This document shows, piece by piece, positions 9,242 to 48,453 of a DNA stretch of 64,000 bases. Both the position numbers and the translations under genes were made by a program. Numbering within the stretch: the stretch's first letter is position 1; the number at the start of each line of letters is the position of its first letter. The notes below the pieces were generated by a model. It worked only from the letters and a program-made list of their open reading frames with translations, searched no databases and was not told the origin of the DNA. Source of the DNA: Thermoanaerobaculia bacterium. GTDB taxonomy: Bacteria; Acidobacteriota; Thermoanaerobaculia; Gp7-AA8. The stretch lies in the NCBI GenBank assembly GCA_017883205.1, contig JADGNZ010000029.1, forward strand, positions 1 through 64,000, read 5' to 3'.

Positions 9242-9272
9242 GGCGATGCGATCCTGCGCGCTCTCAAAATAT

Positions 9273-9334
9273 TCACCACAGAGACACAGAGGACACAGAG
9301 TCGAATCTCTGTGCCCTCTGTGTCTCTGTGGTGA
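9273..9334. repeat. long palindrome, family A copy 2
   Basis: TCACCACAGAGACACAGAGG faces CCTCTGTGTCTCTGTGGTGA, with loop TCGAAT near 9301. It lies between folP and cdaA, two genes on the same strand. Confidence 0.8.
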
Positions 9335-9353
9335 GTGCTTTTTCGTCGGGATC

Positions 9354-15750: not shown

Positions 15751-15908
15751 TCGGCATTTCTCTCCTTTGATCACAACTGTGAGAAATGACAAGTTAAACG
15801 GGCGGAAGCAAGCCGCGGGCCCTTGGCTGCTGCTGATGTTGTTGGCGTCGCGCCGTCCGTGAGCCGGCTGGGCACGTTTCGAACATCGATCCAATGTTTC
15901 ACACCCTC
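15751..15908. other. gap before the 21-bp array, nothing recognised
   Basis: No gene, hairpin or promoter that can be supported was seen between the antitoxin relic and the tandem array, apart from a partial first repeat unit from about 15888. Confidence 0.4.
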
Positions 15909-16475
15909 GACGCTGTGTCTTTCACCCGCGATGCCGTGATTCACACCCGCGATGATTTGCTCTGCACCCACGGTGATGTGTTTCGCACCCTCGATGCAGC
16001 GTTCTGCACCCGCGAGGCTGCTCTTTCCATCCACGATGCCGCGTTCTGCACCCCCGATGATGTCTGTTGCGCCCGCGATGCTGCGTCCGGCACCCACGAT
16101 GATGTGTTTCGCACCCCCGATGTAACGTTCTGCACCCACGACGCTGCGGTTTGCACCCCCGTTGCCGCGTTCTGCACCCCCGATGATGTCTGTTGCACGC
16201 GCGATGCTGCGTCCGGCACCCACGACGATGTGTTTCGCATCCCCGATGCAGCGGTCTGCACCCACGACGCTGCTGTTTCCACCCGCGATGCTGCGTTTTG
16301 CTCCCTCGATGCAGCGGTTTGCACCCGCAATGCTGCGTTTTGCACCCGCGACGGTGCTTTCTGAGCCAACGACGGTGCTTTTCGAACCGGCGACGGTGCT
16401 TTTTGAGCCAACGACGGTGCTTTTTGAACCAACGATGGTGTGTTTCGAACGGTCGGCGGTATTTCTTGAAGCTCA
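15909..16475. repeat. 27-unit 21-bp tandem array (array 1)
   Basis: Twenty-seven consecutive units of exactly 21 bp, for example GATGCCGCGTTCTGCACCCCC and GACGGTGCTTTTTGAACCAAC. The units differ from each other at many positions, yet no indel breaks the register. The period equals seven codons. Long frames are open on both strands across the array: plus 15894-16364, minus 15941-16621 with VQKAPSL/VQNAASR-type heptads, and minus 15771-16265. Which frame, if any, is translated is unknown. The array ends 221 nt before the VPS10-type gene. Confidence 0.85.
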
Positions 16476-26620: not shown

Positions 26621-26675
26621 TTTCACGCGGAGACGCGGAGAAACCCTCCGCGTCCCCCGCGTCTCCGCGTGAAAC
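26621..26675. repeat. long palindrome, family B copy 2
   Basis: TTTCACGCGGAGACGCGGAG faces CCCGCGTCTCCGCGTGAAA upstream of two divergent genes, so here it cannot serve simply as a terminator. Confidence 0.8.
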
Positions 26676-26726
26676 GGTTTTCTTTTCCTCGATGCGTGTG
26701 TCTCACATCCCATAACGGAGGATGCA

Positions 26727-27578: not shown

Positions 27579-27644
27579 AACCACAGAGACGCCAGAGGTC
27601 ACAGAGGCAACGGTCAGCTCTGTGACCTCAGTGTCTCTGTGGTT
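27579..27644. repeat. long palindrome, family A copy 3
   Basis: AACCACAGAGACGCCAGAGG faces CCTCAGTGTCTCTGTGGTT between convergent genes. Confidence 0.8.
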
Positions 27645-27670
27645 CATTCTTCTTGTCACTGCCACTCGAT

Positions 27671-28368: not shown

Positions 28369-31300
28369 ATGAAGAGAGCCATCGCGGCGGTTGTTTGCGC
28401 GCTTTCGTTCTTCGCTGTTTCGCTTTTCGGGCAGACCAGCTCTTCGCTCACGGGCATCGTGACTGCCGAGGGGAGGGCGTTGCCGGGCGTGGTGGTGACG
28501 ATCTCCTCGCCGGAGTTACAGGGAGCTCGACAGACCTTAACGGGTGACGGCGGCGCGTACAGCTTTTCCGCGTTGCCGCCGGGCGAGTATGCGATCTCGA
28601 TGACGTTTGGGGGGATGGAGACGCAGCGATTGCATTCGTCGCTTCGACTTTCGCAAACATCGCGCGTCGACGGGGTACTCAAGCCTGCCGGGACAAGCGA
28701 AGCCATCACTGTCACCGCCGCGGCTCCCTCGGTGATCGAGAGTCCGCAGATCTCCACGAACATGACGCTGCCGTTCATCGAGCGGCTGCCGATTCAGCGC
28801 AATCAGCTTGCGACTGCGCAGTTCGCGCCGGGCGTCAACGGCAACACGCTCGCGAATGGGGAGCTCTACATCTCGGGCGGCCCGGGATACGACAACCTCG
28901 TGCTCGTCAACGGCGTCGCCGTCACGGAGCAGACGCGCGGGCAGATGCGGCCGATGTATGTCGAAGATGCCATCCAGGAGACGACGGTATTGACCGGCGC
29001 GATCTCTGCTGAGTACGGCCGGTTCAGCGGAGGCGTCGTCAACAGCATCACGAAGTCGGGCGGCAATCAGTTGGCTGGCTCGCTGCGCGATTCGCTCAGC
29101 AATCCGGCGTGGGTGGCGCAGTCGCCGGCGCTGGAAACGCGCGAGAACAATCTCAATCACGTCGGCGAAGGCACTCTCGGTGGCTTCCTCATTCGCGATC
29201 ACCTCTGGTTCTTCGGCGCGGGACGACTGGCGAAGAACGACACCTCGCGGCAGACGGTCTCCATTCCGGCATCGGCGACGAATCCGATCTCGCCTGCATC
29301 GCCGGCGATCAGCTATGCCGAGGGGAATGATCAGAAGAGATATGAGGCGAAGTTGACGTCGCAGATTGGCGCGCGGCAAACGCTGGCCGCGTCGTGGTTC
29401 GGCGTCAACACGTTAGGAACGAACGCGCGTTTCTCTGCCAATCTTTACGACGAGGCCAGCCTCACGACGCGCACCGATCCGGAGTCGCTCCTGGCCGTGC
29501 ATTACAACGGCATGGCTGCCACGAACCTGCTGCTGGAAGGCCACTACTCGGCGCGCAAGTTCTCCGACCGCACTGGCGCGCCGACGACGGATTTGATCGC
29601 GGGAACGGTTCTTCTCGACCGCAATAACAACAACACACGCTTCCACTCGCCGTCGCTTTGTGATATCTGCGACGCCGAGCGCCGCAACAACAAGGATGTC
29701 CTGCTCGAGGGTCACGACTTTTTCGATGCGAAATCGTTTGGCAGCCACGACCTCGTCGCCGGCGTCGATCGCTTCACCGAGAGCCGCTATGCGAACAATC
29801 ATCAATCGGGCAGCGACTTCTCGATCTTCGTGACGAAGGCGCAGTTCAGCAACGGGGTGATCTATCCCGTGATCACGCCGTCGAACGCGAACGGTGGCGG
29901 CACGTTCATCCGCTGGACGCCGATCCTCACGCCTGCGAGCGCGAACGACCTGCGGACCGATTCCGCGTTCGTCAACGACACTTGGAGCGCGACGTCGCAT
30001 CTGACCATGACGGTCGGCGCACGATTCGACCGCAATCACGCAGTCGATGCTGACGGCGTCGTCAGCTCGAACGATTCCAAGCTCTCGCCGCGGCTCTCCG
30101 CGCAGTACGACCTTCGCGGCGACGGACGGCATCGATTCTCGGTTTCGTTCGGCGAGTACGCCTCGCGCATCGCGGACAACATCGCTTCGTCGAATCAAGC
30201 GGCAGGCAACGCTGCGGCCATCGACTTCGCGTACCGAGGTCCGGCCATCAACAACACGTCGCTGACCGTGCCGATGGATGACGCGATCCGCCGCATCTTC
30301 GACTACTTCAACAACACGCAAGGCGGCACGGCCAACCGCACGGCGGTGAACCTGCGCGCCAACGGCTCGCGCACGATTCCCGGCTTCGCCACCTATTTCG
30401 ACGGCTCGCTGGCATCGCCCTCGGTGCGCGAATTCACGACGGGATACGGCGCGCAAATCGGCAGGAATGGGTTCGTTCGCGCCGACTATGTTCACCGCGA
30501 CTGGCGTGATTTCTACGCGGCCAGCGTCACCACGGCCACGCAAAAAGCGAACACGCCCCTCGGCATCCCCGTCGATATGCAGCTCGTCCGCAACAGCAAC
30601 AACATGGTGCGTCAGTATCGCGGCGTGCAGTTGCAGGCGCGCTGGACGCCGGACCGCTTCGACTTCGGCACGCACTACACCTGGTCGAAGCTGCGCGGCA
30701 ATGACGACAGCGAGAGCGCGACGACAGGCGCCACGGCGAACATCGATCCGACGCTCTTCTACCCCGAGTACTTCGCGTACAGCCGGGCCGCGCCGATCGG
30801 ATACCTGGCCGGCGATCAGCGTCATCGTGTTCGCGCCTGGGCCGGCTATCGTCTACCCCTGCCGGCCGGTTCGCTCGAAGCGACAGTCATGCAGAGTTAC
30901 GAATCAGGGATGCCGTACTCGATCGCCGGCGCGATCAACCTCACACGTTACGCCGGCGCGCCCGCGAACCTCGGCTACAACTCGGTGCCCAACGGCCTGT
31001 ACTACTTCAGTGGACGCGGCGAGCTTCGCACGGACGCGACGCGCTCGACAGATCTCGCGCTGCGCTACAGCGTTCGCGTGTCCGCGCTGGAGTTTTTCGC
31101 GCAGGGCGATCTGCTCAATGCGTTCAACAATGCCGCAATCTTCGATCCGCAGCGCCTCAGTACGACAGTCACGACCGCGGCGACATCCGCGACGTTCCTG
31201 CCGTTCGATCCGGCGAAAACGACGCCGGTGCAGTGTCCGACGGGTGCATCCGCCGCGGTATGCACGGCGATGGGCGCGAACTACCAGCTCGCGTCAAACT

Positions 31301-31374
31301 TCGGGACGCCGCTGAACAACCTTGCGTACCAAGTGCCGCGAACCGTGCGGATGTCGTTGGGGGTTCGGTTCTGA
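28369..31374 (+). CDS. TonB-dependent receptor with carboxypeptidase-regulatory-like domain
   Basis: 1,001 residues. Signal peptide (MKRAIAAVVCALSFFAVSLFG), then a carboxypeptidase-regulatory-like beta sandwich at ~22-105 (SLTGIVTAEGRALPGVVVTI, GAYSFSALPPGEYAISM), then a plug domain (NMTLPFIERLPIQRNQ, AEYGRFSGGVVNSITKSGGN) and a long beta-barrel ending in aromatic Phe (VRMSLGVRF), as needed for outer-membrane insertion. This is the acidobacterial Oar/CarboxypepD_reg type. The ligand is unknown. A GGGAGA site precedes the ATG. Confidence 0.9.
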   Translation: MKRAIAAVVCALSFFAVSLFGQTSSSLTGIVTAEGRALPGVVVTISSPELQGARQTLTGDGGAYSFSALPPGEYAISMTFGGMETQRLHSSLRLSQTSRVDGVLKPAGTSEAITVTAAAPSVIESPQISTNMTLPFIERLPIQRNQLATAQFAPGVNGNTLANGELYISGGPGYDNLVLVNGVAVTEQTRGQMRPMYVEDAIQETTVLTGAISAEYGRFSGGVVNSITKSGGNQLAGSLRDSLSNPAWVAQSPALETRENNLNHVGEGTLGGFLIRDHLWFFGAGRLAKNDTSRQTVSIPASATNPISPASPAISYAEGNDQKRYEAKLTSQIGARQTLAASWFGVNTLGTNARFSANLYDEASLTTRTDPESLLAVHYNGMAATNLLLEGHYSARKFSDRTGAPTTDLIAGTVLLDRNNNNTRFHSPSLCDICDAERRNNKDVLLEGHDFFDAKSFGSHDLVAGVDRFTESRYANNHQSGSDFSIFVTKAQFSNGVIYPVITPSNANGGGTFIRWTPILTPASANDLRTDSAFVNDTWSATSHLTMTVGARFDRNHAVDADGVVSSNDSKLSPRLSAQYDLRGDGRHRFSVSFGEYASRIADNIASSNQAAGNAAAIDFAYRGPAINNTSLTVPMDDAIRRIFDYFNNTQGGTANRTAVNLRANGSRTIPGFATYFDGSLASPSVREFTTGYGAQIGRNGFVRADYVHRDWRDFYAASVTTATQKANTPLGIPVDMQLVRNSNNMVRQYRGVQLQARWTPDRFDFGTHYTWSKLRGNDDSESATTGATANIDPTLFYPEYFAYSRAAPIGYLAGDQRHRVRAWAGYRLPLPAGSLEATVMQSYESGMPYSIAGAINLTRYAGAPANLGYNSVPNGLYYFSGRGELRTDATRSTDLALRYSVRVSALEFFAQGDLLNAFNNAAIFDPQRLSTTVTTAATSATFLPFDPAKTTPVQCPTGASAAVCTAMGANYQLASNFGTPLNNLAYQVPRTVRMSLGVRF

Positions 31375-31391: not shown

Positions 31392-31452
31392 TCACGCGGA
31401 GACGCGCAGGTCACGGAGCACACCACCGCGTTTCTCCGCGTCTCCGCGTGAT
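31392..31452. repeat. long palindrome, family B copy 3
   Basis: TTCACGCGGAGACGCGCAGG faces CTCCGCGTCTCCGCGTGA between two genes on the same strand. Confidence 0.75.
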
Positions 31453-31482
31453 ACGCCTTTCGTTTCGTGTGACACTTGACGA

Positions 31483-32235
31483 ATGAAATTGCGGCTCGTG
31501 TTACTCATCCTTCTTGCCACTGTCGCTCGTGTCGGCGAACCGGGTCATTGGGCCGAGGTGAATGGGCATCGGATGTACTACGAGACGAGTGGCTCGGGGC
31601 GGCCGATGCTGTTGTTGCATGGCGGCGGCAACACCATCCACGGCTCGTTCGCGAAGCAGCTCGAGGTCTTTACGAAGACGCATTCGATCATCGCGCCGGA
31701 GCAGATCGGCCATGGTCACACGCCTGATGTCGCGGGTCCGCTCACGTACGCACGCATGGCCAGCGACACGGCTGCGCTACTCGTCAAGCTCGGACTCAAG
31801 GATGTCGACGTCGTCGGATGGAGCGATGGCGGGATCGTGGCTCTCATCCTTGCCGTGCGACATCCGGAGTTGGTACGGCGCGTCGCGGTCAGCGGCGCGA
31901 ACTTCACGCCCGAGGGATATCTGGCGGACGACTTGCGGCAGATGCGCGCCAGAGATGTCGAGTCGCCGGCGACTCTCGACCAGAGGCTCAATCACCTTTG
32001 GGCGACATCACCAACGAAGGACGAGTTGAGTCCGGCGCTCCTGTCGGGAGTTCACAAGAGAGTGCTCGTCATGGTTGGCGACCACGACGCCATCCAGCTC
32101 GATCACACAATCGCGCTTTATCGCGCGTTGCCCGATGCCCGGCTCTGCATTCTGCCGGGAACCGGACACGGAACGTTCATTCAGCGGCCGGAGTGGGTGA
32201 ATGCGATTGTGGCGTCGTTTCTGGACGAGCCGTAG
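31483..32235 (+). CDS. alpha/beta hydrolase
   Basis: 250 residues with an N-terminal signal-like helix (MKLRLVLLILLATVARV). The alpha/beta hydrolase fold shows the oxyanion region LLLHGGGNTIHGSF, nucleophile elbow GWSDGG (Ser near residue 115), acid in MVGDHDAI and histidine in GTGHGTFI. The substrate cannot be assigned. The nearest -10-like sequence is GACACT, 6 nt before the ATG. Directly after the stop lies a truncated redoxin relic on the other strand. Confidence 0.85.
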   Translation: MKLRLVLLILLATVARVGEPGHWAEVNGHRMYYETSGSGRPMLLLHGGGNTIHGSFAKQLEVFTKTHSIIAPEQIGHGHTPDVAGPLTYARMASDTAALLVKLGLKDVDVVGWSDGGIVALILAVRHPELVRRVAVSGANFTPEGYLADDLRQMRARDVESPATLDQRLNHLWATSPTKDELSPALLSGVHKRVLVMVGDHDAIQLDHTIALYRALPDARLCILPGTGHGTFIQRPEWVNAIVASFLDEP

Positions 32236-32243
32236 GTCTGTGC

Positions 32244-32305
32244 CTCACTGCATTCACCGAGTTGCGGAACGGTCATCAGTAGCCGCGATAGAAGATGAGG
32301 ATGTC
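32244..32305 (-). pseudogene. truncated redoxin relic 1, carrying the TGA active-site codon
   Basis: Minus-strand sequence matching the core of the redoxin gene at 34835-35599. It reads ILIFYRGY, then TGA (32278-32276, in place of Trp), TGA (32275-32273, at the selenocysteine position) and PFRNS. It then jumps straight to the bases found after the intact gene's stop (GGTGAATGCAGTGA). The middle and C-terminal part is deleted. It lies between the hydrolase stop and the next plus-strand gene. Confidence 0.7.
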
Positions 32306-32332
32306 TCTGGGGTCCGGTTCTGAATTGCGGCG

Positions 32333-32338
32333 CATAAT
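32333..32338 (+). promoter_or_regulatory. -10 element of the exported protein gene
   Basis: CATAAT ends 9 nt before the ATG at 32348. An AGGAG lies only 2-3 nt from the start, too close for a normal ribosome site. Confidence 0.4.
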
Positions 32339-32347
32339 CGAGGAGCC

Positions 32348-33667
32348 ATGTCTCCGCAGCTCGTTTTTCTTACGCTCTTTCTCGGTTTGATCTCCGGACG
32401 AAACGACGTCGATTTGCAGGCGGGACCGGAGATCAAGTCCATTCGCATCCTGCTTGACGGCCGTCAGATTGCTGCGATGAAAGAGCCGCCGTGGCATGCG
32501 ACGGTCGATTTCGGCCCCTCCATCGTTCCCGGCGAACTGGCCGCTGCCGGCTACGACGCACAGGGAAACGAGGTGGTGCGCGTCGCGCAAACGGTCAATC
32601 TGCCGCGGCCTGAGGCGGAGCTCGTGATCGCACTACAGAACGACGCAAGCGGGACGCCGCGATCGGCCGCGCTGCGATGGGAGCATCTGCTCGGGGCGAA
32701 GCCGGTCAAAACGTCGCTTGCCATCGACGGCAAGGAGATTCCGCTCGACAGCACGAGCAGTGCGCGCCTGCCGCGGCTGGACATGAATCACCCGCACGTG
32801 ATCGCCGCCGAGATGAAATTCGACGACGGATTCAGCATGCGACGGGAGCTCATCGCCGGTGGGGCAATCAGCTACACGGCCGATACGCAGTTGACGCCGG
32901 TCGGTGTCAGACAGGCAACCGCGGCGCCGCCGGCCGATACCGGCGATTGCTTCACCAGCGCCGGATCGCCGGTACGCATTGCGGCGATCGAGAAAAGTCC
33001 TGCACTCGTCGTCGTCGTACTCGATCCTGATCCGCAGGAAGCCATCGGGGCGCTCAGCCCGGCGACGAATCCGTCGATGTACTTGAGTGGTAGAAATGAC
33101 GTGCGCCACCTGATCCCGCTGGAGTCCGGCACACGGATGCGCATTCTGTGGCCCTTCGCGAAGCAGCACAAGACGACGAGCAACGCCTCAGCGTTCCTGT
33201 TTCCGCGGTCGAACGATGTCGAGGCGAGCGAAGGCGGCCTGGTGTGGCTGCTCACGCGAACGTACGGCGAGCGAGTCGATGAATCCGAGCCGCGCCGGAT
33301 CGCCGACGCTGTCGGCGTTGCCGGTCTCGAAGCCATTACCAGTGCGAACCGCCGCGCGGTCGTTCTCGCGCTGAGCCGCTTCGAAGACAAAAGTACGCAC
33401 GATGCCGCCTCCATCCGCAACTATCTCGCCTCGATCGGTGTGCCGCTTTTCGTCTGGTCGTTCACCGGGCCGCGGCCGGAACTGCGCGATACCTGGGGAG
33501 AGGTCGACGATGTCTCGTCGCACGGAAAACTGAAGGTTGCCGCCGCCCGTCTTCGCGCGGAGCTCGCGTCGCAGCACGTGGCCTGGATCGCCGCCGATCC
33601 CGTAGCCGCGCTGCGGATCACTCCCACGGGACGCTGCGGAATCACGCCGATGGCCGCGGCACGGTAG
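32348..33667 (+). CDS. exported protein resembling VWFA-related proteins
   Basis: 439 residues. Short hydrophobic N-terminus (MSPQLVFLTLFLGLISG), then beta-rich segments typical of acidobacterial VWFA-related proteins (IKSIRILLDGRQIAAM, WHATVDFGPSIVPGEL). The C-terminal half shows alternating strands and helices like a VWA fold (SPALVVVVLDPDPQEA, RRAVVLALSRFEDKS, GVPLFVWSFTG). A clear DxSxS metal site is not seen. Function unknown. It is flanked on both sides by relics of the redoxin gene. Confidence 0.65.
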   Translation: MSPQLVFLTLFLGLISGRNDVDLQAGPEIKSIRILLDGRQIAAMKEPPWHATVDFGPSIVPGELAAAGYDAQGNEVVRVAQTVNLPRPEAELVIALQNDASGTPRSAALRWEHLLGAKPVKTSLAIDGKEIPLDSTSSARLPRLDMNHPHVIAAEMKFDDGFSMRRELIAGGAISYTADTQLTPVGVRQATAAPPADTGDCFTSAGSPVRIAAIEKSPALVVVVLDPDPQEAIGALSPATNPSMYLSGRNDVRHLIPLESGTRMRILWPFAKQHKTTSNASAFLFPRSNDVEASEGGLVWLLTRTYGERVDESEPRRIADAVGVAGLEAITSANRRAVVLALSRFEDKSTHDAASIRNYLASIGVPLFVWSFTGPRPELRDTWGEVDDVSSHGKLKVAAARLRAELASQHVAWIAADPVAALRITPTGRCGITPMAAAR

Positions 33668-33679
33668 TCGATCGCGTCG

Positions 33680-33733
33680 TCACTCTTTCAATGCAGCGCG
33701 TGCCGCTTCCAGCATCTGCTCCGGCCGCGTGTC
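33680..33733 (-). pseudogene. truncated redoxin relic 2 (C-terminal end only)
   Basis: The minus strand reads TRPEQMLEAARAALKE-stop, nearly identical to the RPEQMLEAAR end of the intact redoxin at 34835-34880. Nothing upstream of it resembles the rest of that gene. It lies directly after the stop of the exported protein gene. Confidence 0.7.
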
Positions 33734-33773
33734 GCTTGCTGCGAACGGTTCGGCGGCGGATTCAGCGACGATA

Positions 33774-33779
33774 TAGAAT
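33774..33779 (+). promoter_or_regulatory. -10 element of the RelA/SpoT-domain gene
   Basis: TAGAAT ends 9 nt before the ATG at 33789, inside GATATAGAATC. No ribosome site. Same hexamer and spacing as the DDAH gene. Confidence 0.5.
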
Positions 33780-33788
33780 CAATGCCCG

Positions 33789-34562
33789 ATGGAGACCCTC
33801 AGCAAGGCGCAGATTGATCGTCTTGGCGAAAGGCTCCGCGCGCAAGCTTTTGGCGAAGCAGAACTTAGGTTGTTGGACGAGTATCGGCGGACGTTCGGTT
33901 CAGCTTACGATCGGGTGGTCGCGAACGTTCAGCGCATCCTAGGCGTTCCCGTGAGCGGCCGGCCCGCGAAGTCAACGAGCTCGATCATCGAGAAACTGAA
34001 TCGGGAGTCAATCCGCTTGTCGCAAATGCAAGACATCGCCGGGTGTCGCGCGATCGTGGCTGATTTGCCTCACCAAGATCTTGCCGTGAATGCGATGGCG
34101 CGTGAGTTGGACAGCGTTGCGATTCAGGATCGACGTGAAAAGCCAAGCCATGGATACCGTGCGGTGCATCTGATTGTTCGAGAAGATGGCAAGCCCATCG
34201 AAGTTCAGGTTCGAACATCTCTGCAACACGTCTGGGCGGAGGTGTCCGAGAAACTTGCGGACACAATCGATCCATCGATTAAGTACGGAGGCGGTCCGAT
34301 GGCCCTGCGTCAAGTATTGGACAAAGTGGCAACACAAGCGCGTCAGATTGAAGAACTTGAAGCAGAACTGGTGGTCGTGCGTCAAACATTGGACAGAGTG
34401 GCGACGCAACGTCTGACTAAAGACATAGAAGCACAACTGGCGCGTGTCGGCGCTAGTGGCGCCGTCATTGCCGAACAGCTACGCGAGACTCGCGAGGAGT
34501 ACGTAAGCAGTTTGCATTCGATAATCAAGGATTTGAATGGTACTGACTTGGAGGCCTTCTAG
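33789..34562 (+). CDS. RelA/SpoT-domain nucleotidyltransferase (possible toxSAS)
   Basis: 257 residues. Residues ~50-160 form a RelA/SpoT synthetase domain without HD hydrolase or TGS regions: RPAKSTSSIIEKL, QMQDIAGCRAIV, DRREKPSHGYRAVHLIV and PIEVQVRTSLQHVWAEV, with the key Tyr and Glu present. The C-terminal ~90 residues are a predicted coiled coil with leucine and valine heptads. Small single-domain enzymes of this kind make (p)ppGpp, or, in toxSAS toxin-antitoxin systems, make ppApp or pyrophosphorylate tRNA. The next gene (81 aa) starts on the last base of its stop, a toxin-antitoxin-like arrangement. The DNA is visibly less GC-rich than its surroundings, which suggests acquisition. Product and target are not known. 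Confidence 0.85.
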   Translation: METLSKAQIDRLGERLRAQAFGEAELRLLDEYRRTFGSAYDRVVANVQRILGVPVSGRPAKSTSSIIEKLNRESIRLSQMQDIAGCRAIVADLPHQDLAVNAMARELDSVAIQDRREKPSHGYRAVHLIVREDGKPIEVQVRTSLQHVWAEVSEKLADTIDPSIKYGGGPMALRQVLDKVATQARQIEELEAELVVVRQTLDRVATQRLTKDIEAQLARVGASGAVIAEQLRETREEYVSSLHSIIKDLNGTDLEAF

Positions 34563-34807
34563 TGTTTTTCCTGATTGACTACGATCGATCTCGTGGCGAG
34601 CTCTCAAGTATCGAGATGTTCGACGATTCAGAACGCACTGCTGCCGAGAATAAGCGCCTGAAGAGAGAGCTATCGTTGCATCGCAAGGGCGTGAAGCGGG
34701 AAATAGTCCTGTTGCAAGCAGCCAGTGAGGATGCGTTGAAGGAAACGCATGGACGGTATTTCGCCAATATCGCGACACTGGCCGAAATCGAATCACGTGC
34801 GATCTAA
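34562..34807 (+). CDS. small partner of the RelA/SpoT-domain protein (candidate antitoxin)
   Basis: 81 residues, no named family. It starts GTG at 34562, sharing one base with the upstream TAG, with GGAGG seven bases before. The N-terminus is strand-like (MFFLIDYDRSRGEL), then a charged helical part (SERTAAENKRLKRELSLHRKG), a strand (KREIVLLQAAS) and a short helix (DALKETHGRYF). The tight coupling to a RelA/SpoT-domain gene suggests an antitoxin or regulatory subunit. This is inference from context; a general response-type regulator is equally possible. Confidence 0.65.
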   Translation: MFFLIDYDRSRGELSSIEMFDDSERTAAENKRLKRELSLHRKGVKREIVLLQAASEDALKETHGRYFANIATLAEIESRAI

Positions 34808-34834
34808 AACGAAGAGCGGTGGACGTCACTGCAT

Positions 34835-35599
34835 TCACCGAAGGCTGCGTGCTGCTTCCAGCATCTGCTCCGGCCGCGCGCGGATGCGGAGATCTTCGGT
34901 CAGGTTGCGCCAGCGCACGATGCTGTTGCGGTCGACCAGGAACTCGGCGGGCCGCGCGATGTCGTGTCCACCCGGGCTCTCTCCTTTGTGCAGGAGGTCG
35001 TACCGCCGGATGGTCTCGGTGTCGGGATCGGAGAGAAGCGGAAAGGTGTAGCCGGTTTTCTTCACGAGATCGCGCGACTCCTCGGGCGTGTCGACGCTGA
35101 TCGCAACCGGTTGGATGCCGGCAGCGCGGAACTCGGCGAGATGATTTTCAATACCCCGTAACTCGGAGTTGCAGAACGGTCACCAGTAGCCGCGGTAGAA
35201 GATGAGGATGACGCCCTTCGTCGCCGGCTCGGCCAGCAGTCCTGCGAGCGCCACCGGCTTTCGATGGATATCGAGCAGGACGAAATCGGGCGCCTTGCTG
35301 CCGATCGCCGGCGCGTGCGAGGAAGCAGGAAGCCACTTCGCGCCGATGAATATGTCCCAGCAGAAGAGGACGCAGAGGAGTACTCCGAAGACAGTCGCGA
35401 TCCACACGCCGGTCCGTCGTCCCGTTGCGCGACGAAGTCCGATCACTAACAGCGCGATGGCGACGGCGAAGAGAACCAGATTTACCCACGGCACATCGCG
35501 CGTGATCGGAAAACGGGCAAAGAAGACAAAGTAGCTGATGAACGCGGCGACGCTGAGCGCAAAACCGGACCAGAGCTGCCAGTTGAAGCGGCGGGGCAT
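34835..35599 (-). CDS. membrane-anchored redoxin with in-frame TGA, probable selenoprotein
   Basis: A continuous 254-residue product if the TGA at 35182-35180 is read as selenocysteine (Sec140). Residues 1-90 hold three membrane helices (SGFALSVAAFISYFVFF, LVLFAVAIALLVIGL, ATVFGVLLCVLFCWDIF). A thioredoxin-fold AhpC/TSA-like redoxin domain follows: GSKAPDFVLLD, then GVILIFYRGYW-U-PFCNSELRG, VAISVDTPEESRDLVKK, FPLLSDPD, PAEFLVDRNSIVRWRN. In relatives the first residue of the motif is Cys (WCPFC), so TGA sits exactly on the peroxidatic position, giving a UxxC site, and the frame remains conserved and open to the true stop. A short hairpin (35179-35156) follows the TGA. It needs a selenocysteine machinery elsewhere. 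The leaderless -10 TATGAT lies 6 nt before the ATG. Confidence 0.82.
35156..35179 (-). promoter_or_regulatory. candidate bacterial SECIS hairpin after the TGA
   Basis: Directly after the TGA, CCGT (35179-35176) can pair with ACGG (35159-35156) and AACT (35170-35167) with AGTT (35163-35160), loop CCG, with a TCTGC bulge on one side. Position fits a bacterial SECIS element; the fold is weak and unproven. Confidence 0.35.
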
Positions 35600-35686: not shown

Positions 35687-36661
35687 ATGCTTACAGCACT
35701 TTTGTTCGCCGCCGCCACCGCCACCCTCCCGTCACTTCCACCAGTGTCCGGCACCGGGTCCCTCGGCACTCCGGCCAATCCCGCGCAGTTCACGTTCTAC
35801 GTCGGCGGCGACAACCGTCCCGACTCCGGCAACGACCCTTCGCCGGCGTTCGAAGCGTTGATCCCAGCGATGCAGAACGCCATGAAGACGACGCCGGCCG
35901 CATTCGTGCTCTGGGGCGGCGACATCATCAAGGGGAAGAAGTCGTCTGACGCGAAAACGCAGTATCCGCTCGTGCTGCCGTGGTTCGCCAAGCTCGGCGT
36001 GCCGGTGTTCAGCGTCCCGGGCAACCATGAGCTGGACACAAAGGTAAGCGGCAACTGCAAAGAAGGTCCCGACGACAACGGCAAACTGCTCGCCGACTAC
36101 ACGGCTTCCGTTTCCCAGCAGCCGTACGGCTGGTTCCAGTACGGGAACTCCGTCTTCATCGGCATCAACACCGAGGAGGTTCCGGGCAAGGATTCTCAGC
36201 CCAGCGGCTGCTACAACGGGTATGTCAGCACGACCCAGCTTTCGCTCGTGCAGGCGGAGATTTCCGCGTTGCCGAAGGGGACGAACGTCTTCCTTTTCAT
36301 GCACCGCCCGACGCAGGACGACAACTCGCACGCCATGCGCCCGGACCCGGCTGACAACGGCACGAAGTACGGCAAGAAGATCATGGCCTTCGTCAACTAT
36401 GTCAACTCGCTGACCAATCCGAACGTGGTCTACGTTTTTGCCTCGCACGATCACCGTTACTACCAGGCGGTTGCCGGCACTTCCAGCAAGACTGGATTCG
36501 TCGTCAGCGGCGGCGGGGGCGCGCCTCTCTCGGGCTGCCCCGACAAGGGCCGTCCGGGCGCGTACTACCACTGGCTGCAAGTCGCAGTGAACGGAACAAC
36601 CGTCACGGTGACTCCGGTTCCGCTCACGAACACCACGCCGTGTGGGGCGCCGCCACAATGA
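35687..36661 (+). CDS. exported metallophosphoesterase
   Basis: 324 residues with a short N-terminal hydrophobic signal (MLTALLFAAATATLPSL). The calcineurin-like two-metal site is visible in order: VGGDNRPDS, LWGGDIIKG, VPGNHELD, FLFMHRP and ASHDHRYY, i.e. Asp, Asp, Asn-His, His and His-x-His. The substrate is unknown; the family hydrolyses phosphomono- and diesters. No cofactor or partner gene is adjacent. Start: ATG 35687, weak ribosome site. Confidence 0.88.
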   Translation: MLTALLFAAATATLPSLPPVSGTGSLGTPANPAQFTFYVGGDNRPDSGNDPSPAFEALIPAMQNAMKTTPAAFVLWGGDIIKGKKSSDAKTQYPLVLPWFAKLGVPVFSVPGNHELDTKVSGNCKEGPDDNGKLLADYTASVSQQPYGWFQYGNSVFIGINTEEVPGKDSQPSGCYNGYVSTTQLSLVQAEISALPKGTNVFLFMHRPTQDDNSHAMRPDPADNGTKYGKKIMAFVNYVNSLTNPNVVYVFASHDHRYYQAVAGTSSKTGFVVSGGGGAPLSGCPDKGRPGAYYHWLQVAVNGTTVTVTPVPLTNTTPCGAPPQ

Positions 36662-39342: not shown

Positions 39343-39597
39343 TCAGGGCGGAGGTCGAGATTCGTCGACCGGTCGAGGCACTTCAAGCCATCTCGAAATC
39401 TCGTCAGCGACGCGCTGCCGAGCGAGGTCATCGATCGACCTATTGATTGAGACTAAGCTACCAGGCAAGAGGTTCCAGCGACGCAAGAGAAGCTCTTGAT
39501 GGTGTTGCATAGTCACCATTTCTGGTGATTTAGGGTGCTTTTGAAGCTCATTTGTTCCCTTTTCATGGATTCGGATCATCGAGTCTTCTAGCCGCAT
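39343..39597 (-). CDS. possible small protein leaving array 2
   Basis: 84 codons open on the minus strand. The first codons (MRLEDSMIRIHE) are built from the degenerate edge of array 2, and the rest is unique (HHQELLLRRWNLLPGSL, SIDDLARQRVADEI). The coiled-coil-like start plus a unique tail look protein-like, but there is no ribosome site and no recognised homologue. Confidence 0.3.
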   Translation of the reverse strand: MRLEDSMIRIHEKGTNELQKHPKSPEMVTMQHHQELLLRRWNLLPGSLVSINRSIDDLARQRVADEISRWLEVPRPVDESRPPP

Positions 39598-39600
39598 TGT

Positions 39601-39827
39601 CGATTCAACGATGCGGATCGATGAATCGACGATTCACATTGTCAATCTGCCGATGCGGAGCGATGAATCGACACTGCGTATCATCGATCCGACAATGTGG
39701 AGCCATGATCGTCACTGCGCATCATCGATATGACGATCCGCATCATCGAAAGGACAATGCACATCGTCGATCTGACGATACGCAGCCACGATTGACGATG
39801 CGCATCAAAGATCGTTCGATGCGCCTA
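39601..39827. repeat. degenerate 21-bp repeats at the left edge of array 2
   Basis: Words such as GACGATGCGGATCGATGAATC recur about every 21 bp with many substitutions, in both orientations because the word is nearly self-complementary. Grades into the well-conserved part. Confidence 0.6.
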
Positions 39828-40122
39828 GAAGATCGTTCGCAACGACTAGAAGACCATTCGCAACGCGTAGAAGGTCGTTTGCAACGACTAGAAGACCCTT
39901 CGCATCGCGTAGAAGACCCTTCGCAACGCGTAGAAGACCCTTCGCATCGCGTAGAAGACCCTTCGCAACGCGTAGAAGGTCCTTCGCAACGCGTAGAAGA
40001 CCCTTCGCAACGCGTAGAAGACCCTTCGCAACGCGTAGAAGACCCCTTCGCAACGCGTAGAAGGTCGTTTGCAGCGACTGGAAGGCCGTTCGCAACGCCT
40101 GGAAGGTCGTTCGCTGCGCCTG
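39828..40122. repeat. 14-unit 21-bp tandem array (array 2)
   Basis: Units such as GAAGACCCTTCGCAACGCGTA repeat 14 times; one unit near 40045 has an extra C, so the array is 295 bp. On the plus strand one frame reads RVEDPSQ heptads up to that base and is then shifted. The array ends 231 nt before the alpha-2-macroglobulin start, close to the 220-nt gap of array 1. Confidence 0.85.
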
Positions 40123-40353
40123 GGAAGATCGTTCCCTGCCCTCGCCACAATCCCGCCACATTCCTGGTGTTGGTTCTCCTCATCTGACCACGCGCACGTC
40201 ACATCGGGGCGTCATATTGGTCGCGAAGGATCGAAGGAGATGGCGATGGGGAGCAGCGACACGACCAACACGGAGTACGAACCGCGGGTCCCGAGGGGAC
40301 CAGTGAATTCCGCGTCACAAAACGGCAACGCCTCTCGTGCTAACCTCCGCCGC

Positions 40354-48341: not shown

Positions 48342-48357
48342 GTTTCCAGGAGAAACG

Positions 48358-48416
48358 AACCACAGAGGCACTGAGATCACAGAGGTTTTCTCTGTGTCCT
48401 CTGAGTCTCTGTGGTG
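48358..48416. repeat. long palindrome, family A copy 4
   Basis: AACCACAGAGGCACTGAGAT faces TCCTCTGAGTCTCTGTGGT after pbpC. Confidence 0.8.
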
Positions 48417-48453
48417 ATGGTTTGGAATCTCCCAAAATCCCGCACGAATCCCG

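Follow-up and report, generated by a model that had tools for sequence, protein, structure and literature searches.

Relics of a redoxin gene and of a TonB-receptor gene mark an old recombination scar beside a selenoprotein gene in a Thermoanaerobaculia bacterium

How do pieces of a single gene come to lie downstream of three different neighbours? The question is raised by a 64-kb stretch (the window; contig JADGNZ010000029.1) of the 6.37-Mb genome of a Thermoanaerobaculia bacterium, which contains an intact gene for a selenoprotein of the AhpC/TSA-type redoxin family (R; 34835-35599, minus strand) and two redoxin fragments, r1 (32245-32303, minus strand) and r2 (33680-33729, minus strand). 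As an earlier note on this DNA had pointed out, each piece sits just downstream of a different plus-strand gene: r1 begins 9 nt after the stop of an alpha/beta hydrolase gene (H; 31483-32235; PF00561), r2 begins 12 nt after the stop of a gene for a 439-aa exported protein (E; 32348-33667), and the intact redoxin locus piece begins 18 nt after the end of a RelA/SpoT gene pair (Rel1, 33789-34562; Rel2, 34562-34807), with 27 nt separating the pair from the redoxin stop. We find the locus to be a genuine, well-preserved recombination scar of a known kind, and a more complex one than the note saw. Between r1 and E lies a relic that had been overlooked, T' (32299-32322, plus strand), derived from the 3′ end of a TonB-dependent receptor gene whose intact counterpart, T (28369-31374, plus strand; CarboxypepD_reg, PF13620, and Plug, PF07715), stands upstream of H. 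The order from left to right is T, H, r1, T', E, r2, Rel1, Rel2, R and a metallophosphoesterase gene (35687-36661, plus strand).

The relationship of the two fragments to the intact redoxin is secure. In r1, positions 32259-32303 match 35166-35210 at 93% over 45 nt, and positions 32245-32260 match 34826-34841 exactly over 16 nt, extending 9 nt past the redoxin stop; the 326 nt that separate these pieces in the intact gene are absent, which bears out the internal deletion that had been noticed before. The C-terminal relic r2 matches 34847-34878 at 97% over 32 nt (33698-33729), and the match stretches with gaps to 33678-33729. Similarity in both extends past the ~20 nt at which the note had set its limit for unrelated segments. 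None of 400 dinucleotide shuffles equalled the r1 score and none of 400 the r2 score; in searches of the whole genome the E-values are 9e-12 for r1 and 2e-7 for r2, and below E 0.004 the genome offers no second match to r2. Together, r1 and the intact redoxin constitute a 385-nt partial duplication (intact copy at 34826-35210, minus strand) that brackets the ~2.6 kb between the hydrolase and redoxin genes. All three redoxin pieces begin TCACT, and the 16-nt direct repeat is common to r1 and the intact locus.

The two relics differ in what they retain. A tyrosine codon in r1 is TAT, as in all four orthologs, and the window's own redoxin has TAC; because it retains the ortholog-type codon, r1 cannot have been copied recently from today's gene. 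It is an old relic that kept TAT and has since lost the codons for a tryptophan and for the partner cysteine of the redox motif. The reading frame of r2 is open for ~32 codons (33680-33778, minus strand; judged by eye) and ends in a tail of its own, RPEQMLEAARAALKE, followed by a stop; its upstream half is without a match, and positions 33730-33788 bear no redoxin similarity. That the tail differs yet stays in frame suggests an origin in another allele, and with it a second event; this is the weakest step in reading the locus as a scar.

The relic T' supplies the physical joint. Its sequence, GGATGTC-TCTGGGGTCCGGTTCTGA, encodes MSLG[V]RF and a stop with one base lost, and corresponds to the last 25 nt of T (31350-31374, plus strand). 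When T' was compared with the end of T, 0 of 20000 shuffles scored as high with GGATG included and 4 of 20000 without it, and the end of T ranks first among the 91 open reading frame ends in the window, to which this comparison was confined. Three substitutions separate T' from T, all synonymous once the lost base is allowed for (by eye), and one of them (CTG) is the codon found in a second genome of the family, G002. The relics r1 and T' overlap in GGATG, by 5 bp with the window's own T and by up to 8 bp with the T of another family genome, G001, and are therefore joined, redoxin DNA to TonB-gene DNA, at a microhomology. The 112-base gap between H and E thus contains fragments of two different genes fused at that point, and T' leads straight into E. 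A third TonB relic was sought in front of the RelA/SpoT pair, where no significant match was obtained (p 0.27).

Gene order in relatives indicates what was brought together. Of 18 family genomes, 5 have an ortholog of the redoxin (E 1e-30 or better), each of them a single copy. In G002, the stop of the hydrolase gene (ortholog of H, 81% identity) touches the stop of the single intact redoxin, and between the two there is no E, no RelA/SpoT pair and no second redoxin. Since r1 occupies the place that the redoxin end has in G002, the H-r1 neighbourhood is the ancestral adjacency. G001 lacks a redoxin of this kind and has T (80% identical to the window's T) followed by a homolog of E at 58% identity; the same contig has another E homolog, at 61%, in a different place. 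The window and the copy next to T in G001 have GGCGCATAATCG in common directly in front of E. In G002, T (82%) is on contig C216 without E and H is on contig C174, both well inside their contigs. Judged from these arrangements, the window interleaves two ancestral adjacencies, the T-E order of G001 and the H-redoxin order of G002. The intact gene is now ~2.6 kb from H and adjoins the metallophosphoesterase gene, as it does in G003 (neighbour compared by eye); its 3′ neighbours elsewhere differ and are a 663-aa membrane-protein-like gene in G003 and a 220-aa gene in G015 (their nature judged by eye).

The relics and their limits, the junction of r1 with T' and the differing arrangements in relatives are all directly observed. 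To account for them, we propose stepwise acquisition of DNA beside one ancestral redoxin gene that served as the homologous anchor, a reading to which we give slightly better than even credence. The ancestral state would have been H placed tail-to-tail with a single selenocysteine-containing redoxin, the arrangement that G002 has. The incoming DNA, with a TonB-gene end and E, would have entered at the 3′ half of the redoxin, followed or accompanied by the RelA/SpoT pair. One side would have been joined at the GGATG microhomology between the redoxin and the TonB-gene end, and the other restored by homology within the redoxin. In this way the redoxin itself could have escaped damage, and what remained of the displaced copy or copies would be truncated 3′ ends, r1 beside H and r2 beside E, after which r1 would have decayed through the 326-nt deletion and disabling mutations. 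The placement of a TonB-gene end directly before E, in the order seen in G001, speaks for this sequence of steps. The earlier suggestion of repeated recombination at the same site fits it.

When a circularised fragment integrates by a single crossover, part of the target ends up duplicated on either side of the insert, and either such a crossover or homology-facilitated illegitimate recombination (HFIR) may have operated here, presumably in two events. In one published account, 109-950 bp of the homologous locus are duplicated next to the cargo in single-crossover products, and the microhomologies at HFIR joints are 3-10 bp long (PMC3240628). The window is comparable in its cargo beside a partly duplicated homologous locus (385 nt) and, perhaps, in the GGATG of its r1/T' joint; it differs in that the laboratory events are fresh, whereas this scar is old, decayed and natural, its mechanism read from what is left. 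The closest published parallel in logic may be the sequential displacement arrays of type VI secretion system effector-immunity genes in Vibrio cholerae, for which HFIR has also been proposed and older DNA is pushed aside (PMC5361080). There, too, successive additions occur at a conserved anchor and leave 3′-end remnants; in the window, however, a selenoprotein gene is the anchor, something other than effector-immunity pairs was added, and the added segments number only one or two. A more general extension, that genes are captured at the redoxin 3′ end time and again without an integrase, with H, E and the defence pair as successive occupants of a slot between the TonB-receptor gene and the selenocysteine redoxin, three of which are strung together here, each leaving a redoxin 3′ end, strikes us as rather unlikely.

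Several observations weigh against stepwise addition. The r1 relic and the intact gene have the same 16-nt tail and r2 has a different one, an awkward pattern for ordering the events. No genome in an intermediate state turned up, the redoxin being present in 5 of the 18 family genomes. Among the 7 genomes searched for E none has it beside the redoxin, although in one of them (G008) the E homolog runs off the end of its contig. The flank that would have come with the RelA/SpoT donor (33730-33788) matched nothing informative in the 18 family genomes. Finally, HFIR typically yields deletion and not duplication (PMC3240628).

The alternative that deserves most attention, possible in our view but doubtful, invokes tandem duplication and reciprocal loss. 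An ancestral row T-E-(Rel)-H-redoxin would have been duplicated at GGATG, from the TonB-gene end to the middle of the redoxin, into two or three copies, and losses would have produced T-H-r1, T'-E-r2 and Rel-redoxin. The attraction of this scheme is that a single microhomology joint between r1 and T' explains the split of T from E, the adjacency of H and r1 and the survival of an intact redoxin, deletions alone being needed after it; if there were three copies, the survival of each gene once gives exactly the observed layout. Interleaving of this sort, and partial copies where the pieces meet, would also follow from the tandem duplication-random loss model of mitochondrial gene order, but the papers listed on that model concern mitochondrial genomes and the window would need an ancestral row that has not been seen. 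The row T-E-...-H-redoxin is absent from G001 and from G002, where T and H are on separate contigs, and no E homolog stands beside the redoxin in G003, in G015 or, within the limit set by its contig end, in G008. Against the references compared, the T-H gap holds no trace of a lost copy of E and the gap between the RelA/SpoT pair and the redoxin none of a lost H. Extra events would also be needed for the tail peculiar to r2 and for the foreign RelA/SpoT pair.

Other explanations start from the redoxin pieces themselves. The earlier note had offered, beside repeated recombination, a tandem array of three full redoxin genes with other genes inserted between them, which would account for three 3′ ends in one orientation. 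The comparison with sister genomes that it had called for was made, and E and the RelA/SpoT pair are indeed absent from G002, but absent from beside a single redoxin and not from an array. With the gene single-copy in all five family genomes that have an ortholog, in its ancestral place next to H in G002, and with T' between r1 and E making the joint one with TonB DNA in place of a redoxin-to-redoxin boundary, the array was rejected and we consider it quite improbable. Site-specific capture of cassettes, integron-like or transposon-like, with attachment at the 3′ end of the redoxin, would be suggested by three different genes each ending at a piece of the same sequence, by the common TCACT and by the 16-nt direct repeat of r1 and the intact locus. 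However, the pieces are unequal (59, 50 and 765 nt), their inner edges fall at different points of the redoxin, what is repeated is part of its coding sequence, and the match of r2 past TCACT is poor until 33698; we regard such capture as very improbable. It is also improbable, if a shade less so than the array, that r2 is unrelated and is the end of some other protein sharing RPEQMLEAAR by chance. Its open frame, the lack of redoxin similarity in its upstream part and the restriction of the good match to 32 nt would allow this, but the identity over those 32 nt, their E-value in the genome, where no third copy appears below E 0.004, and the fact that r2 shares with the other two pieces both its strand and its position with respect to a plus-strand gene argue otherwise. 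Elsewhere, a scan of genome_contigs returned only distant redoxins, at no more than 34% identity.

The cargo of the scar is of interest in its own right. E has no Pfam or NCBIfam match, and its homologs were found in G001, G002 and the source genome itself. Rel1 (PF04607) matches the first part of the PADLOC candidate PDC-S33 (PDLC04999; 349 positions), covering 7-238 at E 8e-29, and its 81-aa partner Rel2 matches the C-terminal part, covering 265-335 at E 5e-5. Together they correspond to most of a single-protein profile, but the version in the window is split into two overlapping genes. We treat them as a possible phage-defence pair, a candidate whose anti-phage function is a database label; a search of one paper library on PDC-S33 found no paper. 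The solved relatives found are RelA/SpoT-family proteins and GTP pyrophosphokinases. The pair is compositionally foreign, with a GC content at third codon positions of 0.58 versus 0.76-0.83 in six other genes measured, and it is rare and scattered in the phylum yet kept as a pair: of 396 sampled phylum genomes, 4 contain a relative of Rel1 (E 1e-20 or better), the source included, and the Rel2 partner is kept beside Rel1 in all three of the others. An origin from phage was considered and rejected: a pattern scan of viral_contigs gave no relative, and in phages and plasmids only distant RelA/SpoT proteins were found, with 13 phage records and 96 plasmid records all below 60% identity and the best 15 of the 96 plasmid records at 24-32%.

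The anchor gene is confirmed as intact, with a TGA at codon 140 (35180-35182) within a U-P-F-C motif. Selenocysteine at this position is well supported. An in-frame TGA occurs at the same redox codon in 5 of 5 orthologs, the window's included. Directly after it (35156-35179, minus strand), the codons for invariant residues are identical in the five genomes (window, G002, G003, G008 and G015) in 7 of 8 cases versus 23 of 81 elsewhere (Fisher p 0.0018), and these codons, frozen across genera in a way that suggests a constraint like that of a selenocysteine insertion sequence, include a TTA leucine codon in a GC-rich genome. The source genome has a tRNA-Sec (71.4 bits, cut-off 47) and selB (346 bits, cut-off 242). 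A single-sequence fold 3′ of the TGA was no better than shuffles (z 0.21) and lends no support to a selenocysteine hairpin. The claim that the TGA retained in r1 independently supports selenocysteine did not hold up. TGA at 32273-32275 is the old selenocysteine codon, but the neighbouring TGA at 32276-32278 is a mutated tryptophan codon (TGG), the partner cysteine TGC has become CGC, and the sequence downstream is deleted. The survival of a TGA in a relic is not evidence for selenocysteine.

UxxC selenoproteins of the Prx-like thiol:disulfide oxidoreductase type (PF00578) are already known (PMC13188914). The window protein shares with them the AhpC/TSA domain (PF00578) and the UxxC motif, and differs in having a hydrophobic N-terminal stretch (~90 residues) that by eye seems to span the membrane. 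Two further TGA-containing redoxin paralogs in the source genome (G000:C60:626-1072 and G000:C41:2173-2664) are probably additional selenoproteins. At the end of R, the stop TGA is followed by an in-frame ATG CAG TGA (34826-34837, minus strand), giving two TGA codons, of which the first is taken as the stop.

Comparison of the window with itself gave other matches that are mostly low-complexity arrays, sequences matching their own reverse complement in the manner of palindromes, or families of short repeats, the rows having been classified in part. Dispersed short repeats, several of them near-palindromic, lie at 31414-31466 (in the T-H gap), 26636-26687, 27579-27646, 2799-2867, 9266-9341 and 48347-48426, and 21-nt-based tandem arrays occupy two separate parts of the window (15902-16470 and 39593-40134).

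Small relics at the ends of genes can be read as the joints of past recombination, and here a gap in which two genes are fused ties a change in gene order to a physical joint. The locus also illustrates how a two-gene defence candidate, itself rare, can come to lie next to a conserved gene and leave that gene unbroken.

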